Origin: Termitomyces sp. T153
Taxonomy: Eukaryota; Basidiomycota; Agaricomycetes; Agaricales; Lyophyllaceae
DNA: 64,000 bases
Direction of reading: 5' to 3'
NCBI GenBank assembly: GCA_018296165.2
Contig: JACKQL020000008.1
Coordinates: forward strand, 1,426,001 to 1,490,000
Position 1 is the stretch's first letter. Every line of letters starts with the position of its first letter. Under the pieces are notes generated by a model. The model made no database searches. It was not told the origin of the DNA and saw only the letters and a program-made list of their open reading frames with translations. The translations under genes and the position numbers were made by a program. Below are positions 50,394 through 64,000 of the stretch, piece by piece.

Positions 50394-50697
50394 GTGTGAG
50401 TTTTGTTGGATTCAAGCAAAAAATTGCTAACTTCTATGAACTTCAGCACCTAATGTCTATAGCTGGACCATGTAGTATAGATATTCTTAATGGTTTACAA
50501 ATGTAAGTGTGACAGTTTAAATAATTGGTTGGGTTGGTTAGTACTAACTTTTATAATTCTCAGCATCTCTAATATATACCAGTGGACATTGTAGTATTTT
50601 GTTAATAATGTAATATAGACACATGATTGGTTTATAGATGAAATCTCAGTGTATTGAATTGTAAGAGAAAAGCAACACTTGGTCAACAAAATACAAA
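50394..50697 (+). other. Helitron 3' non-coding part with a short direct duplication
   Basis: The block AATGGTTTACAAATGTAAGTGTGA, ending the helicase gene at 50375-50398, recurs at 50487-50510 in the non-coding tail. This suggests a local duplication of roughly 110 bp. No gene seen. Confidence 0.5.
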
Positions 50698-51262
50698 GAC
50701 CTAACCGAATGAAGTGAGGTTGGGTCTGGGATGAAGCACTGAGTTAGAAATACAAAGACCTAACTGAACAAAGTGAGGTTGGGTTTGGGATGAAGCACTG
50801 AGTTAGAAATACAAGGACCTAACTGAACAAAGTGAGGTTGGGTCTGGGATGAAGCACTGAGTTAGAAATACAAAGACCTAACCGAACAAAGTGAGGTTGG
50901 GTCTGGGATGAAGCACTGAGTTAGAAATACAAGGACCTAACTGAACGAAGTGAGGTTGGGTCTGGGATGAAGCATTGAGTTAGAAATACAAAGACCTAAC
51001 CAAACAAAGTGAGGTTGGGTCTGGGACTTAGCACTGAGTTAGAAATACAAAGACCTAACTGAACAAAGTGAGGTTGGGTCTGGGATGAAGCATTCAGTTA
51101 GAAATACAAAGACCTAACTGAACGAAGTGAGGTTGGGTCTGGGATAAAGCATTGAGTTAGAAATACAAAGACTTAACTGAATGAAGTGAGGTTGGATCTG
51201 GGATGAAGCATTGAGTAGAATATCAAGGACCTAACTGAACGAAGTGAGGTTGGGTCTGGGAT
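50698..51262 (+). repeat. 59-bp minisatellite, about ten copies (unit 2 end)
   Basis: Unit of 59 bp with core AAGTGAGGTTGGGTCTGGGA and a spacer GAAGCACTGAGTTAGAAATA. Measured starts at 50698, 50757 and 50816 give the period. Copies are nearly identical. The same repeat is at 43735-43990, 52950-53275 and, reversed, 4900-5340, always next to the terminal hairpin. Confidence 0.92.
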
Positions 51263-51269
51263 GAAGCAA

Positions 51270-51307
51270 GAGCTACAGGCCCGTGCCTAAGGCATGGGGC
51301 GTAGCTC
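51270..51307 (+). repeat. Helitron terminal hairpin, unit 2
   Basis: GAGCTACAGGCCCGTGCC, TAA, GGCATGGGGCGTAGCTC: the best-preserved stem of the four copies, placed immediately before the unit boundary at 51308. Confidence 0.78.
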
Positions 51308-51308
51308 G

Positions 51309-53319
51309 TCTATATAATATGGGATGACTCCTGGGAAAGTGGCTGTGCACTCAATATATGTGACAACTTTGGATTGTGCTGACTAAAATTTGTCAGCTGC
51401 TGACCAAGAACCTTCCTTTTTGGGCAGCTTGGCTGTTTTTCGCACTTGGAACAGGTTTTTTTTAAAAAAAATTATAGTAGACAACTTTGACCATCCTTTG
51501 ACTATGTGTGAAAGGTGCCAGACTTGATATCTCAGGCAATATTTAACTATTTTCAGCCTTATTTATGTTAAATATACTGTCTTTTAATGCACCTCCACAA
51601 GGAACATGTCCCATGCATGTATTTCTTATCAAAAAAAGTTCAGAACAATGAATTTATGATCAAAAATGGCCAAAGAAGTGGTATAAGATGTTTCTTTGAC
51701 TCTGAAAAGCTTCTACTTATTTTTTAGGAAGGAGAATGATTGCCCTGTGTATATCCCTAGGCAACCTATGGTTCCTGATGGACTTTGAGAGGTTTATGGC
51801 ATACACTATGTTTTGACTATATTTCTTACTTGAGTCTGATTGCTGATAGCCTCTGACTTGGAAGTGTATTCTGTGATGTTAGGTGGTACCAACATTGAAT
51901 TGTAAAATCAAACAAAGTGAGGCTATACTTGGACTGGAGTGCTGCTAGCTGTATGTTGGCTTTCTGATTCCAAGGTGTATGGTTCAGACTTGAAAGTATG
52001 AATTCTTATAGTTTTACAGTAATCAGCTTGGAGTCAACTTACTCCTGATCATCTCCAACTTTTGCTGCTCTCAATAAAAATTTGACTACATTATGACAGC
52101 CTCTAAGAAAAGAATGGTGGATTTAATTTATTATGCTACTATTGGTGAAGAGAGCATTGAAGATTGCTTTAAGATGGAAAAAGCTTCAGAAGGCAGTATT
52201 AATATAGAATGTGTAAAGTTGATGGTCTTCTGTTAAGGGACTGGAATAGGAGGTTTTTTGCTCAGTACTATGACATATATCTATGTTTGAATAGACTGAA
52301 TTGCTACTAGCTGTAGGCTACATTCTGTTTCTGAGAATCCACAGAGTTTTTGATTTGAAGGTGTATGGTTTGTGATTAGATCATTGTATAGTCAGATATA
52401 TCAAGTTGAAGACAACAGATGAGTGATGTCAAAAGTCTGATTGCTAAGTATCAGTACCATTTAGTGATACTGTAAATGAGATTGTAGATATCTCATTACT
52501 CAGACTGCTTTCCCTAATTTGTTTCTCTTTAGTATATTTTGGTGTTCAAAAATTGTTCAACATGCTCTTCAAAGTGCATGAGTAATAAGGGGATAGAAGG
52601 TGGAAAGTATATTATAGATGATCTATTAATGATAATCACTTGCAAGAGTTGGAATATTGAAAATCTAACCAAGCAAAGTGAGGTTTGGTCTGGATTTCAG
52701 CATTATATTAAAAATAATGGAATACTTATATAAGGAAAGTATATTTGACTGAGTGAAATATAATTGAAATCATAGTAAAGACTTATGTTTACTGACATTG
52801 ACAATAACAGGACTGTCAACAAATTGATTTAAAAAAGAAAGACCAAAGTCAGCATAGTGAAAGAGATGAGTGGGAAAGCCCATTAATATGACAATCTTGA
52901 TTACTTTATTGAGGAACACTTATCAATAACATGAAAGACAAACTGAGGTTTAACTGAACGAAGTGAGGTTGGGTCTGGGAATTAGCATTGAGTTTAAAAT
53001 ACAAGGACCTAACCAAACAAAGTGAGGTTGGGTCTGGGAGTTAGCATTAAGTTTGAAATACAAGGACCTAACCAAATGAAGTGAGGTTGGGTCTGGGATG
53101 AAGCATTGAGTAGAATATTGAGGACCTAACCAAACAAAGTGAGGTTGGGTCTGGGATGAAGCATTGAGTAGAATATTGAGGACCTAACCAAACAAAGTGA
53201 GGTTGGGTCTGGAATGAAGCATTGAGTAGAATATCGAGGACCTAACTGAACAAAGTGAAGTTGGGTCTGGGATGAAGCAAGAGCTACAGGCCCATGCCAA
53301 AGGCATGGGGCATAGCTCA
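51309..53319 (+). mobile_element. Helitron unit 3 (non-autonomous)
   Basis: It starts TCTATATAATATGGGATG, shares about 180-220 bp with the start of unit 2, and ends with a 370-bp block, six or so 59-bp repeats and a hairpin, as in unit 1, at CATAGCTCA (53319) followed by T. Inside (51540-52580) there is no Rep/helicase and nothing I recognise; a few weakly similar segments (for example GCTAGCTGTATGTTGGCTTTCTG near 51945 and a diverged form near 52306) hint at internal duplication. Confidence 0.7.
53281..53318 (+). repeat. Helitron terminal hairpin, unit 3
   Basis: GAGCTACAGGCCCATGCC, AAA, GGCATGGGGCATAGCTC: same stem-loop as units 1 and 2, ending at the boundary with family B LTR sequence. 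Confidence 0.75.
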
Positions 53320-53612
53320 TTCAGACAAGTGTGGCCCCTTTAACACTGCCACCAGCTTATGTAACTGCTGACCAATTGCTGACACATCACTTTTGTTTTT
53401 TTTCTCTGTCATACTGTACAGTGGTTTCTCATGCTTCTGAAGCCTCTGAAGCATCACACCTGGCCTAGGGAATCCCCAGACTTGTTCTCTTTGGATTTTC
53501 TTTTGCCAGGTGAGTAGTTATCTCAGTAGACACTGTACAGTACTGAATAGACTTGGGACTTCCCTTTGCCAGTTGTGTGACTTAGCCACAGCCTCCAGAG
53601 GTTGCCCTTACA
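53320..53612 (+). mobile_element. Family B LTR, truncated (copy B3)
   Basis: From about 53470 the sequence matches the right part of the B LTRs (CCAGACTTGTTCTCTTTGGAT, GCCACAGCCTCCAGAGGTTGC) and ends CCCTTACA at 53612. The left part is missing or too diverged; the Helitron array abuts it. Confidence 0.7.
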
Positions 53613-53689
53613 GCAGAACAAGTCTCTAGATTTGGTCTGGGAGCCCCCTTTTTGGTTACTTGAGCTTCTACTTAGTTCCTCAAAAGGTC

Positions 53690-54985
53690 TCTCCCCCACC
53701 AGCATCTTAGTGCCCCTGTGCCCTTCCTATGACCCAGCCAACCCCTCCAGCACCTCCCTCTGATGCTTCAAGCCCCCAGGACAATGCCTGGTGTCATTTG
53801 ATGTCCCTGGAGACACAGGTTTAACTTACCCAAGACTTCCTTACTTCCCACATGGCTGAACTCACTGGACTCCATCAAACTACTGAAGCAGTGTCTCTTC
53901 CTCTCCAAGCCCTTCTGGAACGTCTTCTCTTTGCTCCTACCACATCTTCAATGCCCCCAGCAGATGCAGAACAGTTTGTGTCTGCACCTGGCTTAGGCCC
54001 TTCAGGTCCTCATTCCAAACTCCCTCATCCTGCACTCCCTGATGTATATGATGGAGATTGTAAGGCTGGAGAACATTTCCTCCAGTCCTGCATCACCTAT
54101 ATCCAGCTGAGTGGTGAGGCCTTTATCTTGGATGCATTCAAAACTGCCTGGGTCCTCTCCTACAAGAAGGCTGGTCAAGCCTCAACCTATGCATTGCACA
54201 TCTTCTGACACCCAGGAGGAGTGGAGAGTTTCTCTGGCTGGATGGATTCTGAGAAGGAGTTCCAAGCAGAGTTTTTCCCCCTTGACCCTGCCAAAACCAG
54301 AGCTCTTTCCCTTCAAGACCAAACTCAGTATGGTTAAGGGAAGTGGTCACTTGATGAGTACATTGACTCCTTTTGTGCCTTAGTTGAACAAGCTGGATAT
54401 CTGGATGGTCTACAACTCTGCCTAACCTTCCATGATGGACTCCACCCCTCTCTCAGGAATCATATTGACAGCATGGCAGAGGGGCACCCAGATGATGAAC
54501 ATGTTGATACCTGGTACAAGGTGGCATGTGAGCAGTGGCAGCTCATGGAACTGCAATGTGAGTTGTGGCAGATGCAACCCTCAACCTTTCCTTTTCCTCA
54601 TGGAGGGTTCACCCTTCACACTCCCTCTTCTGCACCTGCATTAGCATCCTCACAACCAGGTGCAGCTCCTTTCTTCATGCCTCATGCTGCTCCCCTGTGC
54701 TCCCTACCACAAGAAGTCCCAATGGATGTTGATGCTTCCTGACAGCAGTCCTCTACCCCTTTGCTGTGTCAATGCTGTGGGAAGGCAGGTCATTTTGTCT
54801 GTTACTGTCCTCAAGGGCTAGAAGTCTGCTACTTGTCAGCATCAGAGCAAGAAGAGTTGCTCATCCAACTCCTGGCAGCCCAGGATGCTACAGGAACCCC
54901 CTCTCCAGATGCACCTATAGCCATTCATTCTGAGGAAGTGGCCAATGTATTGGAGGAGGTTCCTACAAAGTCTGAGGATTTTTAA
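53690..54985 (+). pseudogene. Family B gag (copy B3), most complete copy
   Basis: The plus strand encodes a Pro-rich start (PTPPAPPSDASSPQDNAW), HMAELTGLHQTTEAVSLPLQ, LPHPALPDVYDGDCKAGEHF, SCITYIQLSGEAFILDAFKT, then after a TGA (54206) and frame changes FSGWMDSEKEFQAEFFPLDP, HPDDEHVDTWYKVACEQWQL, and a CCHC knuckle at 54764-54808 (CQCCGKAGHFVCYC), ending EEVPTKSEDF and stop at 54983-54985. It parallels family A gag domain by domain but with different wording. Stops such as TGA at 54740 and TAA at 54338 disable it. Confidence 0.82.
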
Positions 54986-55199
54986 AAGGGCAACAGATGA
55001 CCAGTATGCTCCCATTGCCTAGTACTAATTGTTTTGCCCCCCTGTCCATAGAATCAAATATATCTGTTGCCATTATTGATATAATGCCTGAAACAATAAG
55101 CCCCTCCTCAGACATACAAACTCCCTCTCCAGCTAAAATCTCAGCTGGAAACATACCCCCTAGCCCATGCCTTTGGATTCCTGCATGAGAATGCTGCCT

Positions 55200-56105
55200 C
55201 CCCCATTGCTATATTGTTGCTTCCACCCCTTCCATCAACTCCCTGAAGCTACAGGTGGAAATTGAGACAATGGACACCTAGCAGATCCATGGTGTGGTTG
55301 CCCTCCTTGACAGTGGCACAACAGGCCTCTTCCTCAACACTGACTATGTACAACAACACCACCTGACCACTTGCCCCCTTTCCCATTCTATCCCTGTATA
55401 CAATGTTGATGGCATGCTCAATAAAGCTGGTTCTATTTGCTCTGTGGTAAACCTGGTCCTCCACTACCAAGACCACTCAGAGCAAGCTGCTTTTGCTGTC
55501 ACTAGTTTGGGAAAGCAAGACATGATCTTGAGGTTCACCTGGCTATGTGAACACAATCCAGAGATTGACTGGACTAAGGGTGAGGTGAAGATGAGTCATT
55601 GCTCATGCCACTGCATTACCTGCACAGAAGAAGCCCATAAGGAGCAGAGAGCCAAGGTTCATGAGCATGCTGCTGTGCATGCCTGTTGCACTGGGCATCT
55701 CCCTTATGCTGATCTTGATCTCCTGAGTCCCCCCCCTCTGGCATTCTCTCATAGAGAGGCCTTCTATGAGGATGTCCAGAGTCCTGGGTGTGAATCTCCA
55801 GAGGAAGAGGAAGGTGAAGGAGAATGGACCCATACTCCAGATGCAGAGTCCCCGGATGAGACCATAGAGGTGGGTGATCAGATCTATGCTACAACCCTCT
55901 GCCTCCCTCCTACTGTGGCAGAGATTCAGGCCAGTCAGACTACTTTCCAGTGTCTGGTCAAGGCATTTGCAGTAAATTCACAGCCCAAGCCTTTCTATAG
56001 CACTGTTCCCAATCACCTCCATGACTTTGAGGATGTATTCTCCAAGGCCTCCTTTGGTTCACTTCCAGAGCGCAAGCAGTGGGATCATGCAATTGAGCTG
56101 ATACC
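55200..56105 (+). pseudogene. Family B pol start: protease and linker (copy B3)
   Basis: It runs from about 55250 (METMDT, then TAG) into an open frame 55294-56105: retropepsin MVALLDSGTTGLFLNTDYVQ, a conserved PVYNVDGMLNKAGSI, and GKQDMILRFTWLCEHNPEID. A His/Cys-rich spacer (CSCHCITCTEEAHKEQ) and an acidic linker follow, then DFEDVFSKASFGSLPERKQW and DHAIELIP. The DSG catalytic triplet is intact. The frame is cut just before the reverse transcriptase by the family C LTR at 56106; the rest of this pol is not in the window. Confidence 0.82.
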
Positions 56106-57143
56106 TATCAGGTTCCACTGATGATGAGGGCTCAGCTACACTAGCAAATCCTTACTAGGCAGACACAATGTCCTGCACTTATCACCCAGTATCCTGGGGT
56201 TGGTGCAGAGTGAAGGGACTTGTGAAGGGAAGCTAGGGGGGGCAGTCTGAGCAAGTCTGGAATGGTCCAGGGAAGTCTAAGACCAAGTATATTTGATATC
56301 GGACCTGGGCAGACATCAGGGAAAGGTTTGTGGGCATGCAAATAGACTGCAGGGTAAGCGGAGGCTTTGCAAATGATAGGGGCAGAGCTGGAGTTTGATG
56401 GGGGATCACCAAAGCTTGATGGGTTCCGGGGCCAAGCAAGGAGCAAGGTCTGGAGTTGTTATAAGAATGTTTGGGGGTCGTAGCACATGTGTGGAGTTCA
56501 TACTTATGTTGGAGATGAAAGGAACTTAGAGAAACAAAGGAAATATATACAGTCGAGACAAGACAGAGACAAGGCAAGACAAGACAGAGAAAAGAGATAG
56601 ATTCAAGACTAAAAATAGAGACAGAAACAAAACAAGACACAAGACACAGGAAACCAGTAAATGCAATATCAAGACTCAAGTTCCAGGAGTTACTCTACAA
56701 CTTATATACTGACTACTGGGTGGCTCCAGAGGACAGTAAATATGGTGGTGGGGCTTGACAGAGTTGTGTAGAGTTGATGGGTGTTGGATGCAATCATGGG
56801 GCAGGCTACAGTGACATTCTGATGGGATCAGCTGGGAATGCAGACCATTCTGGGGTCATTGGAGTGCTCTGGAGCAGGTCAGGAGAATTAGGGTGGAGGG
56901 TCAGGAGTGTGTGACATGGTTAAGAATGGTGGGAAAAGTCTCAGGAGCTTAGGAGAAGTCAGGGGAGGCATTAATGGCTGTGGAGAAGGTGTCAGAGTTG
57001 ATCAGGGGGCCATTAGAGTTTGCCAAAGAAGTGTCAGAGTTACCCAGAGTGGGCACGGAGGGTGGATCAGGGTTTGGGGAGTTTGGCAGGGTGTTGGGGA
57101 GGACTGAAAACAATGTTGGGGGTCTAGGGAGCGGGTCATGACA
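56106..57143 (-). mobile_element. Family C 3' LTR
   Basis: Plus-strand ends are TATCAGGTTCCACTG (TG to TA) and GGGTCATGACA. It aligns with the solo LTR at 3567-4728: shared CTTACTAGGC near the start, CTTATATACTGACTAC in the middle and the end. It differs mainly by TG/CA where the other has CG. A polypurine tract complement follows at 57144, so it is the 3' LTR of a minus-strand element extending right. Confidence 0.85.
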
Positions 57144-57156
57144 TCACCCCCCCTTC
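57144..57156 (-). other. Polypurine tract of family C
   Basis: TCACCCCCCCTTC on the plus strand, that is GAAGGGGGGGTGA on the element strand, directly abuts the LTR as plus-strand primer site. Confidence 0.72.
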
Positions 57157-57455
57157 AGCATTGAGACCCTTGAGATGCAGAGCACAGTTCAGGGGTCAGC
57201 AGGGCATGGAAATTGAAGTTGAGCAATATTGATCAGACTGCAGTAGTGGCAGCAGCATGGGGAACAAAGTCGAAGCATGGCTGCCATTCATCAGGGGGTC
57301 CCTCCCAAGTCATTAAAAAGGATCAGATGTACCTCAGAGTTCCCAAACTTTCCCAATGTTGTCTTCCATATACTCCCCAGCAGTGTCCCCCTCTCCCTTG
57401 GCACAGTCTCCCTCCCCTTCCTCCAAGGATTCTGAGGGTTGCTGAGATCATAAAC

Positions 57456-58966
57456 ATGTGCAAGCAATGTACTGGAGCTGTGAGTGCAATCTTGTCTGTG
57501 CGCTTCGAAGTGCTAACAGAAATCTTGACAGAGTTATCTGCGGCAGTGGCAGGCCCTTCAGAGCTGTTGTTGAGCAGTTCGTGGCTGCTGTGGGGCGGGC
57601 AAGGGGTCCCCCAACCCTTGAGTGGTGTCAAGCAGTGGCTCCGGTGAGTAACAGTGGGATTCTATTTTTTCTCTGACTAACCCATTCTGTAGTGTTTGTC
57701 CTGTGTTTGACAGGGAGAACACTGCGACTTTGAGGACCTCATGCCAGGTTTATGGCAGGATACATCAGTGTGCCTCCCATGTTGCTCATGGCATGAGAGA
57801 TGCTCTGTTACATCAAGTTGGTGTGCTGCCTGCGTCACTGTAGAGCAGGGTTGGGACCAGGCATGGGTCGTGGAGCAGATGGGGGAGGGGTGGCAGGGTA
57901 GGGTGTTGGAGAGGATCGAGAGGGCTGAGGGTGGGGGTAGTGCAGGGTGTCCACTAATGAAGGTTGGGCCCCTGTGGGGTGATTGGAGAGAAGGGGCCTT
58001 TATGGTGCATGACAAGGACAAGCAGAAGGCATTTCCCCTGCTAGAGATGGGACTGAGCAAGCAGGCGCAGGGGGAGCAGGCAATGGCAGGTCCCCCAGGC
58101 CCCGTGGTCTATTCCCCAATCTCTGGGGCTCCCATTGAGCAGTCCACAGGGGAGTTGTGGTCAGCCACAGAGGCCTTTCTGCAGCATCAAGTGGAGGGGT
58201 TGGAGAAGTTGCTGGCAACCCACAAGGAGGAGATCTGCAGGATTGGAGAGGACTGGGACACAATGCAGAGAGAGTGGGATGAGGCACAGAGGAAGCAGAA
58301 TGAGGCACAGAGGGACAGGAACATAGCACAGAGAGATCAGGACCTGGCTATGGGGACAGTCTTGGAGTGGCTGGTCCAACTCCAGCAGGTGCAGGCTCAT
58401 CTAAAGCAGTTGGAAGCATGGGTGGAGGAGGGGTGAGTCATAGGGGTGCCATGGGCAGCAGCAGAGAGGGCATAGAGGCAGGAGGAGTGGCTTGCCAATG
58501 AGGTGGCCTCAGGATGACAGGGGGTGCTTCATAAGTCTCTGCCTCTTCATTCTCTGTTCTTCATCCCACTGAGCTGTCTCCACTTTGGCAGACTGGGCCA
58601 GGGAACACTGCATTCTCCTTGATGGGGCATTGGCAGCACTGGAGTTCATTCACAACAGGCTGATGAGGATGCCCAGGGACCTCCCTCTAGAGCTGGAGCA
58701 GGGGGTTATGCAGATGAGGCACCTGCTGGCAGGGCATCAGTGGAGGACAACAGTGGACCCCAGAGTATAGTAGGAGGTGGCAACAGACATAGGAGAACCC
58801 CTCCCAGGGCATCCGGAAGTTCTGGCAACAGTGGTAGCACAACTGGAGGTGGATATGGTGAGGAGGATAGCAGAGGTAGAACTGGAGGGGAAGGGGCAGT
58901 AGAAGATTTTCTTGGACTTGTTTTCTTGTGCTCCGTGCCTGCTTGTACTTTTTGTAATATCATGTA
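57456..58966 (+). pseudogene. Intron-containing gene of unknown function inside family C, opposite strand
   Basis: Exon 1 about 57456-57643 (ANRNLDRVICGSGRPFRAVV, PPTLEW); intron 57644-57713 (GTGAGT..GACAG); exon 2 57714-58432; intron about 58433-58591 (GTGAGT..GGCAG); exon 3 58592-58966. Exon 2 starts with a Cys-rich segment CDFEDLMPGLW, CLPCCSWHERCSV, CAACVTVEQGW, then a linker and a long charged helix with heptad-like repeats (QREWDEAQRKQNEAQRDRNI, 58260-58330), a probable coiled coil. Exon 3 reads WAREHCILLDGALAALEFIH and LELEQGVMQMRHLLAGHQW. This Cys-motif plus coiled-coil plan recalls multicopy Agaricomycete hypothetical proteins; no function is known to me. Phases at the second intron do not match (2+2 nt) and a TAG follows TVDPRV (58770), so this copy may be decayed. 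Confidence 0.6.
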
Positions 58967-59093
58967 ATGTCATATATATGACTTGGATGACTGAGCTCTT
59001 TTTAGTGTTAAGTGAGGGGGAGTGAATAAAACATGTAGGCAGTACTTGTAGGAGTTAAATCCCTGGTAAATCCAGAGGTGGGGGTTATGCCCT

Positions 59094-60600
59094 CTATTGC
59101 CATCTGTGTTTACTAGTCCCAGGGGCCCTGGGGCTTGGTGGAGTGCCATCAATGGAAGTCCCAGAGTTTGTCGGGGGCTCCATCAAGGTTTTTTTGGGGT
59201 TCCCATGTGTCATCCTCAGGTCTGTAGCCCCTCCAGCAGACCAAGTACTGGGGTTGGCCATGGACCATGCAGGAGTCAAGGATTTAGTTGACCTTGTAGT
59301 GGTACTTGTCTTCAACTTTGACAAGGGGCAGTCAGCTGGGGTGTTAGCTGGGAAAGGGGTCTGGACTATGTCTTTTGAGGAGTTGGACGTGGAATACAGG
59401 GTGGAGGCCTTTCAAGCCTGGAGGTAGGTCAAGTTTGTAGGCATGCATGGAAACCTTCTGGAGGACTTTGAAAGGGCTGAGGCATTTGTGGTTGAGCTTG
59501 ATGGAGGGCCTCTGGGTCTTGAGGTTGCATTGATCAAGCCAAACCAAGGTGCCAGGGGGCTAGTTGGGAGTGGGATTGTGTCAGGCATTGGCATGTTTGG
59601 AGTAGGCTTGATTGGCAGTGTTTATCTTGTCCTGGAGAAACTGGTGGAGGGATCAGAGGTCCTTGATGACTTTGTGGGTGACATGGAAGGGGATGTATCT
59701 GGGGGATAGAGTGAGTCAGGGGTTGTAGCCCTTGTTGGCATAGAAGGGGGAAACTCTGGTGGCAGAGTAGGGCATGTTGTTGTAGGTAAACTTGGCAAGG
59801 GGGAGTTCTGTGCACCAGTCATTCTGTAAATAGTTAATGTAGAGGTGGAGATACTGTTCCAATGTCTGGTTTACTCATTCTGTATGTCCATCAGTCTCTG
59901 GGTGATAGGCAGTGGAGAGGCTAGTTTTGATTTTGAGCACCTTGCATAGCAATTGCCAGAAATAGGATATGAACAGAGGTCCACGGTCAGAGACAATGTC
60001 ATTTGGGAGTCCATGCTTGGAGAATATGTGTTCCAGGAACAGTTTGGCAAACTCTGGAGCATTGTTGGTGGTGTAGCAAGGGATGAATGGGGCTTGCTTG
60101 GTGAGGCAGCAGACGATGACAAGAATTGCATTGAAACCTTTGGAGTTGGGGAGTTCAACAATGTGATCTATTGATATTGAGGACTAGGGGCATTGGCCAA
60201 TGGGGAGGGGCTTCAAGAATCTGTGGGAGCAATGGCAGGGTACCTTGGCCCAGAGACAAGGTTTGCAGGCCCTTACATATTGCGTGATGTCCTTCTTCAT
60301 TCCTGGCCAAAAGTAAGTCCAGAAGATGAGTTGAAGGGTCTTATAAATTCCTAGATGCCCCCAGAGCTTATGGTTGTGGTGTTGCCAGAGTATGTCAAGG
60401 CAGATGGACTTGTGGTCTGGAGCATAAATTTGTCCACTCTAGAGCAGGAGGCAGTGGTCTGGGAACAGCAAAAAGGAGTTTTTAGTGCTTGACTCATTGG
60501 AGTTGTTGCAGGGGTCATGCTGGGCAAAGAAGGAGTCCAGGAGCAAATTTCTGATTTGATGGAGAATTCCTTCTTCATTTAAAATCAGTGCAGCATGTAG
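59094..60600 (-). pseudogene. Family C integrase and chromodomain
   Basis: Minus-strand order: zinc-binding and core start (about 60500-60180), FSKHGLPNDIVSDRGPLFIS and FWQLLCKVLKIKTSLSTAYH, PETDGHTE then a stop, VNQTLEQYLHLYINYLQNDW (60040-59820), LAKFTYNNMPYSATRVSPFY, then QRPSIKLNHKCLSPFKVLQK and LPPGLKGLHPVFHVQLLKRH (59520-59360), and the chromodomain [36 protein letters not shown] (59310-59165). The chromodomain places it among chromoviruses, which use it to read histone marks at integration sites. A few TAA/TAG stops interrupt the frame. Confidence 0.87.
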
Positions 60601-60639
60601 ATGTTCAGGGGGGATTACCACTTGATGGTTGAATGTGTT

Positions 60640-61900
60640 CCATTTGGCTTCAAATGACTTTTTCAGATACACATTGGACCTTTGAGTGAGGGCATCAGGC
60701 TTTGTGCCAAGTCATCCAGAGCAGTAGTGGATGGTGAAGTTGTACTCTGAGAGGGTTTCAGACCATTGAGCTTGGCAGCAGCTAAGCTGTTTTGTGGTCA
60801 TAAAGTATTGTAGGTTGTTGTGGTTGGAGTAGACTTGGATGCGGTGTGGGGATCCCTCAAGGTAGGCCTGCCACTGACAGAAGGCTTCAACAATTGCAAG
60901 GAGTTCTTTGTCATAGATGTCATAGTTGAGTTCCATAGGGATCATTGATTGGGTGTAGAAGGCAATGGGATGGAGATCCTTGCCCCTGGAGTCCAACTAG
61001 GAGAGTATTCTAGTAATAGTGTAGTTGGAGGTGTTGCACTTGAGTACAAGAGTACGATAGGCAGGGAGGGGTCAAAATGGTGGAGGACTGGAGCAGAGGT
61101 GAAGGCCTTCTTCAGGAGGAGGAAGATGCTTTGGCACTTGCTGTCCCAATCCCAAGGGGTGTCCTTCCATGTGAGCTGGTTGAGGGGTTTGGTGATTCCA
61201 GAGTAGTTGCTGATAAATCAGTGGTAAAAGTTAGCAAACCCCAGAAATGACTGTACCTCCTTGACATTTTACAGCAGGGGCCAATTGAGTATAGCTTTGA
61301 CCTTGGCGGGGTCCATGTGCATGCCATTGGGAGTGACAATGACTCCAAGATATTTGACCTCCATCATGTGGAAGGAGCATTTCTCAGGTTTGGCATGAAG
61401 GTGATATTCCCAGAGTCATTCCAAGACATGGCAGACATGCTCCAGATGCTCTGCAGGCAAATTGGAGTAGATCAGGATGTCATCCAGGTACACAATAATG
61501 AAGACATTGTTCATGTTGTGGAAGATGTCATTTATGAAGTACTGGAAAGTGGTGGAGGAGTTAGTCATTCTGAAGGGCATTATGAGGTACTCAAAAAGGC
61601 CATAGCAGATGCAAAAGGCAGTCTTCTATTCATGTCCCAGAGCAATCTGGACATTGTTGTAGCCAGAGCGGAGGTCTATCTTTGTGTAGATCTCAGCACT
61701 ATGGAGGCGGTCAACAAGGTCTCCAATCAGGGGGAGGGGATACCAGTTCTTCTTGGTGACTTTGTTGAATCCCCAATAATTGACACAGAGTTAGAGTGAT
61801 CCATCTTTCTTCCTGGTGAACAGGACTGGAGCACCGGCAGCAAAGCATGTCATTGAGGAACTCCTTCAGGGCCTAGAGCTTGATTTCAGACATGTTGTAG
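60640..61900 (-). pseudogene. Family C reverse transcriptase and RNase H
   Basis: Reverse transcriptase (about 61860-61260): the segment LTRKKDGSL, then [20 protein letters not shown], the AFCICYGLFEYLIMPFRMTN-type segment, FQYFINDIFHNMNNVFIIVY, and the catalytic YLDDILIYS at about 61505-61478, intact. LLGVIVTPNGMHMDPAKVKA lies near 61320. RNase H (60996-60660): [60 protein letters not shown]. Some stops are present. The preserved YLDD contrasts with every family A copy and the copia element. Confidence 0.87.
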
Positions 61901-63374
61901 ATCTTGCCAAACAGGGGTGAGGCACTCTCTTTGAGATTGATCTTGTGGTCATAGGAGTGGTGCAGGGAAAGTTCTTTGGCACTCCCTTCAGAGAACACAA
62001 TAGCAAACTCATGATACTCTGGAGGAACTACTTCAGATAGGATCTGTTCCTCTGTTTTGCTCTCCAGCATGGTGGTTCCTGCCCAGAGGTGCTCCTCCAG
62101 TAGGGCTGGCATGATTTGTAACTGGAAGGCAGGGGTGCCATCTTGTAGGATGCATGCAAAGGGGATGGCGCCAATGATTTTAATGTCAAGGTTTCCAGAG
62201 TTGATGGAGGTGGATGTCAGGGTGAAAGTGGTTGAGTCTGGGGTGGTGGTGGAGTTAATCAAGGGGGTTGAGCATCATTGGTTGGGGTACTGTGGGCCTT
62301 TGTATCAATTCTGAGGTATATTGGGAGGCAGCCATCATAATTTGATCAAGAGTGACCAAGGCGGAGTTGCACTTTCTTTACCATTGGGGTCACTGTTGGA
62401 GGTTAAGGAGCTCTGGATAGCTCTGGAGGTGCTGGCACTGGAGTCAGAGATGTCGGAGTCCAAGCTAGACTGGAGGCAGAGGGGGATGCTGGCTGCTAGA
62501 CTTGCTTTGGGGCTGGGAAATTGTATAGTGAGGTTCTTCCAGTCCATGTCAGGGTTGACGTCTTGCAGCCACAGGAGTCCAAGCACAATTGGAGTCAACA
62601 GGGGTAGTTGGGTTATGAGGAGCCAGGCCTGCAACTGCAGGTCATTGTCAAGAGTGAGGATGGTGTCATGGTATTGGGTGATCCTTGTTGTGGTGGAGCT
62701 CCTGTCGAATAATTGGAGCTTGAGGAGTTTGTCGAGGTTGTTGTATTGGAGGTTGAGTTGACTGCTGATGAAGGTACTGGAGATGCCACTGTTGATGAGG
62801 GTGGGGAGTACCTTGGGCAAGCCGTCAAGTCAAACATTGATGACAAATAACTGCATGGACCTAGAGCAGAGCTGCAGAGGAGTCCGGAAGTGGTTGATCA
62901 TAGTCTCAGAGTTCTTGGAGGAGGGTGAGACATTGAAGGGTACTAGTCTGGAGTCGGTGGAGTTGTCCCAATTAAGGTGGAGAGTGAGGTTGGGCCAGTC
63001 AATGTGGAGTTGGTGGAGTGGAGCCATGAGAAGCCTAAGATGACAGAAGCAGAGGGGTGTAGTTTTGTGACAAGTAGCCGGAGTTCTTGTTGCCATCCAT
63101 TGGCAAAAGTCATGGTTGTCTCCAGGCAGTGGGTGATGTCCCTGGTGGGGGTGGGGTCACCGTTGAAGAGCTTGAGGGGGATTGGGGCAGGGAGGCATCG
63201 GAGGAGTTGGGGGGCAAGCACTGCCAAAGACTCATTGATGAAGTTATCTGTGGCGCTGCTGTCAACTAGGGTGGGGAAGGGGTTGTCAGAGAAGAGGAGG
63301 GTGGTGTGGAGGAGAAGTGTGGTGGAGGTGTGAGAGGTGAGGTGTGCTGGGAGGTTGTCTGGGGCGAGTACCAT
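61901..63374 (-). pseudogene. Family C protease region with two retropepsin-like domains
   Basis: Minus strand 63374-62943 carries a first domain (LLLHTTLLFSDNPFPTLVDS, SATDNFINESLAVLAP, LRLLVTKLHPSASVILGFSW). Minus strand 62860-62335 carries a second (MQLFVINV, LPTLINSGISSTFISSQLNL, LQAWLLITQLPLLTPIVLGL, WLQDVNPDMDWKNLTIQFPS). Both have the hairpin, the active-site strand and the closing (V/I)LG..WL strand. The active sites are DSSAT and NSGIS, where DSGAT-like is expected. A linker follows to VPPEYHEFAIVFSEGSAKEL (62060-62000), which leads into the reverse transcriptase. Normally a gypsy element has one such domain. Both appear weakened by G-to-A changes. Confidence 0.7.
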
Positions 63375-64000
63375 TGCGCGAAGAAGTGTGGCCTGGGCAG
63401 AGAAGACATCAGGGTCTGGTCCATGGTCTAGTGCATCCTCAAGACCTAAACTACCAACTTGTTTTCCATGAACTGGTAGTTACAGTCTTTTATGTTGATG
63501 CTCCACATGGTGCATCCCATCACCTGTCATTTAGGACAACTGCGAATAAAGTGCCCCTGCTCACTACATAGGATGCATATGCCCTCTTTCTATCATTTCT
63601 CCTGTGTCGCCTCCAGTACATTGATCCATGGCCTATCCCAAATCTTGTTCATGCACAGGGCTTCTTGATTGTTGGCGGAGGATGGAATGTTGTTGTAGTT
63701 GTTAGGGTTGGCATTCAGGGGCTCTGGGGTTTCATGGAGGTTGGCGGCATTGAGCTGGGCAGGTGGGTGTTGTCCTGGGAATTGATTAGTGCTGGAGGTT
63801 CCTTGGCCCAGAAGGAAACGGGGTGTGGGGTTGGTGGGGTTGGTGGGGATCAAGGATCAAAGGCCATTGGTTGCTCCAGCCTGCCAGTTGGTATTACTGG
63901 AGGTGTTCCAAGAGGTCCAGGATGCCGTGTTTTTGCTGTGGTCTTCCCAGTAACATTGGTCAACCTAGGTAACAAGCACCTTGTACTCATTGTAGGTGGT
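63375..64000 (-). pseudogene. Family C gag C-terminal part with CCHC knuckle
   Basis: At 63585-63530 the minus strand reads GICILCSEQGHFIRSCP, a C-X2-C-X4-H-X4-C knuckle. Before it, 63853-63593 gives a Pro/Asn-rich segment (PTNPTPRFLLGQGTSSTNQF, NPNNYNNIPSSANNQEALCM) ending NKIWDRPWINVLEATQEK. The capsid part and the 5' LTR would lie beyond the window's right edge. A stop separates the two segments from each other. Confidence 0.72.

Follow-up and report, generated by a model that had tools for sequence, protein, structure and literature searches.

Here we present a multi-exon gene carried antisense inside a Ty3/gypsy retrotransposon of the fungus Termitomyces sp. T153, first seen in a 64-kb stretch (hereafter the window) of contig 8 (JACKQL020000008.1, positions 1,426,001 to 1,490,000; contig 8 is C8 below) of the 72.4-Mb genome assembly. 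Comparison of many copies indicates that this gene is a fixed resident part of a recently active Termitomyces retrotransposon family and is copied along with the element, and that its protein is under purifying selection, in a reading frame that goes beyond chance. The gene has four exons and three short introns, and it encodes a protein with a Zn2Cys6-like cysteine cluster and a predicted coiled coil, which is probably a nuclear regulator encoded by the element itself. The copy in the window is a decayed pseudogene.

Results

The gene travels with the element

Sampling with integrase DNA gave 30 loci, the window's own locus included, and 29 of them carry the gene in the same place and on the same strand, some only in part (e.g. 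L028). The remaining locus, L026, was considered as an element free of the gene and rejected: beyond the LTR (long terminal repeat) by its chromodomain comes the primer-binding side of a different element, so that L026 marks a junction with another element, inserted or rearranged. Its own gene was not found in 12.5 kb on the LTR side, which contains an element on the opposite strand with a gene copy of its own. Sampling with gene DNA added seven further loci (L002-L008), all seven with integrase on one side and an LTR on the other. When the genome was searched with the protein of the gene, each of the 84 gene places considered (the best 84 of 2955 first-look candidates) was found to adjoin the antisense integrase of the element, 73 by coordinates and 11 by DNA. 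For the 73 the integrase is on the opposite strand, 405-465 nt away for matches longer than 1 kb, and all 11 of the others adjoin tail and integrase DNA, L062 with only the first 73 nt of the integrase piece. From the other side, 38 of 111 integrase places had no gene among the matches listed; six of these were read and all six carry gene sequence, whole in L053 and L055, and interrupted or truncated in L052, L054, L056 and L057. The original prediction, made from the window sequence alone, had proposed a stable antisense component of the element, and these counts agree with it; the counterexamples that it named, family elements without the gene or a gene living mostly outside elements, were looked for and did not turn up among the loci sampled.

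The association extends beyond this genome and far back in time. Among 127 relative proteins fetched from strains including Mn162, T112 and J132, 13 run from the C-terminus of the gene into an antisense reading of the tail or the integrase (from Mn162 and T112, none from J132), which points to the same gene-element arrangement in strains Mn162 and T112. Distances between copies in the gene and in the integrase are correlated with r = 0.87 (38 elements, 703 pairs), the maximum in 2000 shuffles being 0.37. A diverged copy at C35:457514-458843, with 40-50% protein identity, keeps the order LTR, leader, gene, which makes the association an old one. At the other end of the age range, the LTR pairs of young elements are identical at 985/989 and 974/982 positions (the second pair is cut at its end) and a GTGCA duplication flanks the young element L042 on both sides, so that the family has moved recently. 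Separately, the diverged gene relative (L042 9615-9987, L049 1-943 = C35:457514-458843) is cut by a young element, and a similar type is present within protein P0127.

Four exons and three introns on the opposite strand

The gene lies on the plus strand, antisense to the element, between the 3′ LTR with its polypurine tract and the end of the chromodomain (about position 59114 of the window). Its model (Table 1) comes from the alignment of copies and of annotated Termitomyces relatives, such as P0013 with 514 aa, and consists of four exons separated by three introns of about 50 nt, each with GT...AG signals that recur across copies. The donor of intron B is GTGAGT or GTGCGT according to subfamily, and a CTAAC precedes its acceptor in nearly all copies, while the donor of intron C is GTGAGT or GTAAGT in the copies; intron C differs in length from copy to copy and its flanking exons are constant. 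The original prediction of a gene on the plus strand between chromodomain and polypurine tract, coding for a Cys-rich domain and a coiled coil, is thus borne out by the copy comparison. It had counted two GTGAGT introns; introns with this donor do begin at 57480 and 57644, and a third intron is present at 58531-58591. The GTGAGT at 58435 was tried as the donor of a second intron and rejected, because in homologous copies this site is read as part of exon 3; the donor lies at 58531.

In the young copy L041 the introns measure 51, 49 and 51 nt, and after splicing in silico the frame is open for 514 aa; the copy with the intact 514-aa frame has LTRs matching at 974/982 positions. In L041, introns A and C have lengths divisible by three and contain no stop, so intron-retained forms are possible; they are retained in some annotated models. 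Intron B separates stretches read in different frames (L040), and its removal is therefore required. Between the end of the gene and that of the convergent pol frame, which has 1394 aa and closes with the chromodomain, lie 230 nt.

Selection on the antisense frame

The ratio of nonsynonymous to synonymous substitution rates (dN/dS) was calculated in two runs. In the first (Nei-Gojobori, 36 aligned copies) exon 3, divided into three parts, gave 0.30, 0.38 and 0.29 in the gene frame, and exon 4 gave 0.26; in the spacer beyond the gene (58901-59090) all six frames gave 0.67-0.85. The area of exons 1 and 2 carried a weak signal, 0.49 against 0.60-0.74 in the other frames (28 pairs). The second run used corrected exons and less decayed copies, three young against eight middle-aged, picked from 38 by their CpG content, for a total of 24 pairs that are not independent and whose synonymous divergence in the gene (dS 0.89) is near saturation. 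Here dN/dS was 0.23 (0.19-0.28) in the gene frame, 1.16, 1.03, 1.21 and 1.14 in four of the other frames, and 0.38 in the complementary frame. Middle-aged copies compared among themselves gave 0.46 and 0.37, values that fit decay after insertion.

Features of the protein and its relatives

After an N-terminal region the protein has the cysteine pattern C-x2-C-x6-C-x15-C-x2-C-x6-C, and then a His that is conserved and one more Cys, the seventh. Each of the six cysteines of the pattern is retained in 83-100% of the copies with letters there; for comparison, the mean fraction of the top residue across exon 3 is 0.73. Behind the cluster comes a basic stretch, most commonly KGKRRASPSPEAGPSKRARG, with a loose pattern present in 101 of the 127 relative proteins, and the structure model predicts a long helix at residues 270-368 and, at lower confidence, further helices to 479. 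Among Pfam families, Zn2Cys6 is the one matched by most members (19 of 39 when matches up to E 1 are counted, best E 0.0052); the NCBIfam profiles gave no match to the protein, and solved structures gave weak matches only (best E 0.38).

One exon in the window matches a protein of Termitomyces sp. Mn162 at 99% identity across 82% of the query. Three protein searches listed no relative outside Termitomyces (10/10, 120 listed of 170, and 76/76), and viral contigs held no relative of the accessory protein. The expectation that such proteins would be multicopy through spread by the element holds in part: the gene is multicopy because the element is, but a presence across Agaricomycetes, also expected, is not seen, as the listed matches are all from Termitomyces.

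The element and the decayed copy in the window

The host element is a Ty3/gypsy chromovirus, with the order reverse transcriptase, RNase H, integrase and chromodomain, LTRs, a polypurine tract and a target-site duplication; in the pol of young copies the Pfam families RVT_1, RT_RNaseH, rve, Integrase_H2C2 and Chromo were matched. In the window it lies on the minus strand, with the 3′ LTR, the polypurine tract, pol to about 63.5 kb and then gag, and its 5′ LTR is about 2 kb outside the window. Position 57144 is the first internal base, directly after the LTR, and the two LTRs match at 705/764 positions.

Table 1. Features of the antisense gene and its host element, in window coordinates.
Feature	Position	Strand	Basis
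3′ LTR, TGTCA...TGACA type, first G mutated in the window	56106..57143	-	LTR pair and boundaries
Polypurine tract, read on the minus strand	57144..57159	-	sequence; identical in young copy L042
Leader between LTR and antisense gene; presumed promoter area	57144..57355	+	LTR-adjacent conservation in other copies
Exon 1, decayed in the window copy	57356..57479	+	alignment to P0013 and L041
Intron A, GTGAGT...CAG	57480..57531	+	copy alignment
Exon 2, shortened by about 127 nt in the window copy	57532..57643	+	copy alignment, L041
Intron B, GTGAGT...CTAAC...TAG	57644..57692	+	copy alignment
Exon 3: Zn2Cys6-like cysteine cluster (57693-57833), basic stretch, coiled coil	57693..58530	+	copy comparison
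Intron C, donor decayed to ATAAGT in the window, ...CAG end	58531..58591	+	copy alignment
Exon 4: C-terminal helical part and stop	58592..58902	+	sequence, dN/dS
Spacer between convergent genes	58903..59113	.	dN/dS in six frames
pol (chromodomain, integrase, RNase H, reverse transcriptase, protease), broken by stops in the window, ends approximate	59114..63479	-	domains identified in young copies

The window copy of the gene has in-frame stops, for example at 57708, and its exon 2 measures 112 nt against 239 nt in the intact L041, with the missing sequence gone near 57572; the loss is also visible as an offset between the two match pieces of the window copy. Its observed/expected CpG ratio is 0.08, against about 1 in young copies. 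Among the copies compared, old ones have ratios of 0.01-0.1 where young ones are near 1, in the gene as in the integrase, the expected outcome of methylation and deamination.

Several other repeats surround the element. Its 5′ LTR is seemingly cut by an element from a younger subfamily in the opposite orientation (L039 from about 2752 onward, C8:1492752), which carries a gene copy of its own at C8:1500670-1501899. Plus-strand fragments of another Ty3/gypsy-like element occupy 53500-56105 of the window, and their open frame 55282-56121 is cut at the start of the 3′ LTR, so that the studied element seems to have inserted into this plus-strand one. A tandem array with a unit of 58-59 nt forms two blocks, at 50571-51278 and 52879-53318. 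Elsewhere, contigs L043, L044, L047 and L048 start a few bases inside an LTR, and L045 and L046 slightly further in; these starts are most likely assembly breaks at the repeat.

Discussion

For a gene that moves through an RNA intermediate, keeping introns depends on which strand is copied. The sense genomic RNA of the element would hold the introns of the antisense gene as reverse complements, these would go unspliced, and every new DNA copy would retain them; the survival of introns through retrotransposition had been anticipated on this strand logic, and introns are indeed kept across copies. By the same logic the protein needs an antisense transcript of its own, which presumably starts near the 3′ LTR. 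The cysteine cluster, the basic motif and the coiled coil together make a dimeric nuclear regulator that binds DNA or chromatin the best guess, and we consider it probable, from these sequence features, that the gene encodes such a regulator for the element, with a Zn2Cys6-like cluster and a coiled coil. The protein would enter the nucleus, dimerise through the coiled coil, bind DNA or chromatin through the cluster, and regulate the element in trans, for instance in LTR transcription or in the choice of target. A more specific proposal, to which we give rather less credence than even, is that the regulator is a Zn2Cys6-type transcription regulator of the retrotransposon's own, which the opposite strand encodes as a normal gene of several exons. 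The antisense placement would allow a spliced gene to be inherited through RNA, and because of splicing only the antisense transcript would yield the protein, so that the element would possess an independent switch for feedback.

A number of observations weigh against the regulator reading. The complementary frame equals the gene frame in the middle part of exon 3 (0.39 against 0.38), the gene is less constrained than the integrase (dN/dS 0.23 against 0.10), and the gene ratio comes with near-saturated synonymous divergence. The cluster itself is not typical: the scores shown for Zn2Cys6 (PF00172), 11.1-15.4 bits, are under the 21-bit cut-off, the middle loop of 15 residues exceeds the usual Zn2Cys6 range, and the first half of the cluster is without basic residues or nearly so. 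The strict halves of the basic motif occur in only 33 and 32 of the 101 motif matches. Finally, the structure model is poor, with a mean predicted local distance difference test score (pLDDT) of 51.7, and a Foldseek search with it returned three matches at E up to 10 and none at 0.001.

The main rival is that the protein is a helper in the replication cycle, in particle assembly, in nuclear import of the integration complex or in targeting linked to the chromodomain, and does not act on transcription. The gene is fixed in the family and selected, a coiled coil suits assembly, and plant antisense open reading frames (ORFs) have been proposed to take part in retrotransposition (PMC7264820); however, the cysteine cluster and basic motif point to a nuclear binder of nucleic acid, and a separate antisense transcript would be an unusual source for a particle protein, which leaves the helper a possible but rather unlikely reading. 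Three ordinary introns of the fungal type might instead suggest that the gene began as a normal host gene, captured and kept as cargo through some benefit to the fungus. All 84 of the gene places (the best 84 of 2955 candidates) are in elements, however, no relative outside Termitomyces is among the matches listed, and the copy of 40-50% identity holds the same position beside an LTR, so we regard such cargo as improbable; a host gene captured once, as the original prediction also allowed, found no backing, with no recognisable host gene and, among the matches listed, no relative outside elements or outside Termitomyces.

Another reading is that the antisense RNA matters rather than the protein, by way of transcriptional interference or of double-stranded RNA. 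Gene and pol are convergent, and antisense transcripts are discussed as regulators in a plant review (PMC7264820), but strong constraint at the protein level and conserved splice sites make this highly improbable. Least credible of all, with a chance close to nil, is that these are chance open frames or a shadow of codon bias in repetitive DNA: CpG-poor copies do have many long open frames on both strands, yet constraint is strongest in the antisense frame, splice sites and position are conserved, and the frame and adjacency tests refute it.

A nuclear regulator encoded by the element would have several partial counterparts. In Gal4-type Zn2Cys6 transcription factors of fungi (PF00172), two C-x2-C-x6-C halves are followed by a coiled coil. 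The two halves of the cluster in the Termitomyces protein match this x2-x6 spacing, and its predicted coiled coil also lies behind the cluster; it differs from these factors in its 15-residue middle loop, the few basic residues of the first half and scores that, as shown, stay under the Pfam cut-off. Among viruses, HBZ of HTLV-1 is spliced. It is an antisense nuclear protein with a part in the virus life cycle (PMC11963269); its virus is an animal retrovirus, and a sequence relation is not expected.

Lying in most family copies antisense to gag-pol, with pol on one side and the 3′ LTR on the other, the gene is an antisense additional ORF of the kind termed aORF-3R, a kind known from the plant elements Grande, RIRE2 and Retand and from brtn of the fungal Boty. 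As cited in PMC7264820, PMC8365987 and PMC4227169, brtn is the antisense additional gene of Boty-like Ty3/gypsy elements in Botrytis cinerea. These elements too have gag-pol and a chromodomain, and by description brtn resembles the Termitomyces gene in its position, after pol and before the 3′ LTR; its host is an ascomycete. The plant aORF-3R genes (Grande gene23, RIRE2, Retand TRP28, PvRetro13) are likewise antisense, and some of their proteins are nuclear or predicted to bind DNA, as described in PMC7264820 and PMC11963269: the Grande protein is reported as nuclear and TRP28 as predicted DNA-binding (PMC11963269). Their hosts are plants, and TRP28 belongs to PF04195, a family without a match in the Termitomyces protein. 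The word 'intron' is absent from those two papers, and the terms 'antisense', 'accessory' and 'intron' are absent from a survey of fungal LTR elements (PMC3248453). No report of the Termitomyces gene was found in the open-licence literature, and as far as that literature shows, what is new here is the basidiomycete family, the three introns, the Zn2Cys6-like cluster, a protein listed only from Termitomyces, and measured selection.

Antisense accessory genes of LTR retrotransposons have been described mainly from plants. In Termitomyces, the gene borne by this element accounts for a large set of the multicopy hypothetical proteins in genome annotations, and it illustrates how antisense placement can let a gene with introns endure in an element that is copied through RNA. 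Given young copies whose LTRs are nearly identical, a protein that is under selection and has recognisable features, and genome sequences from several host strains, the function of such a gene can be put to the test by RNA sequencing and protein assays.
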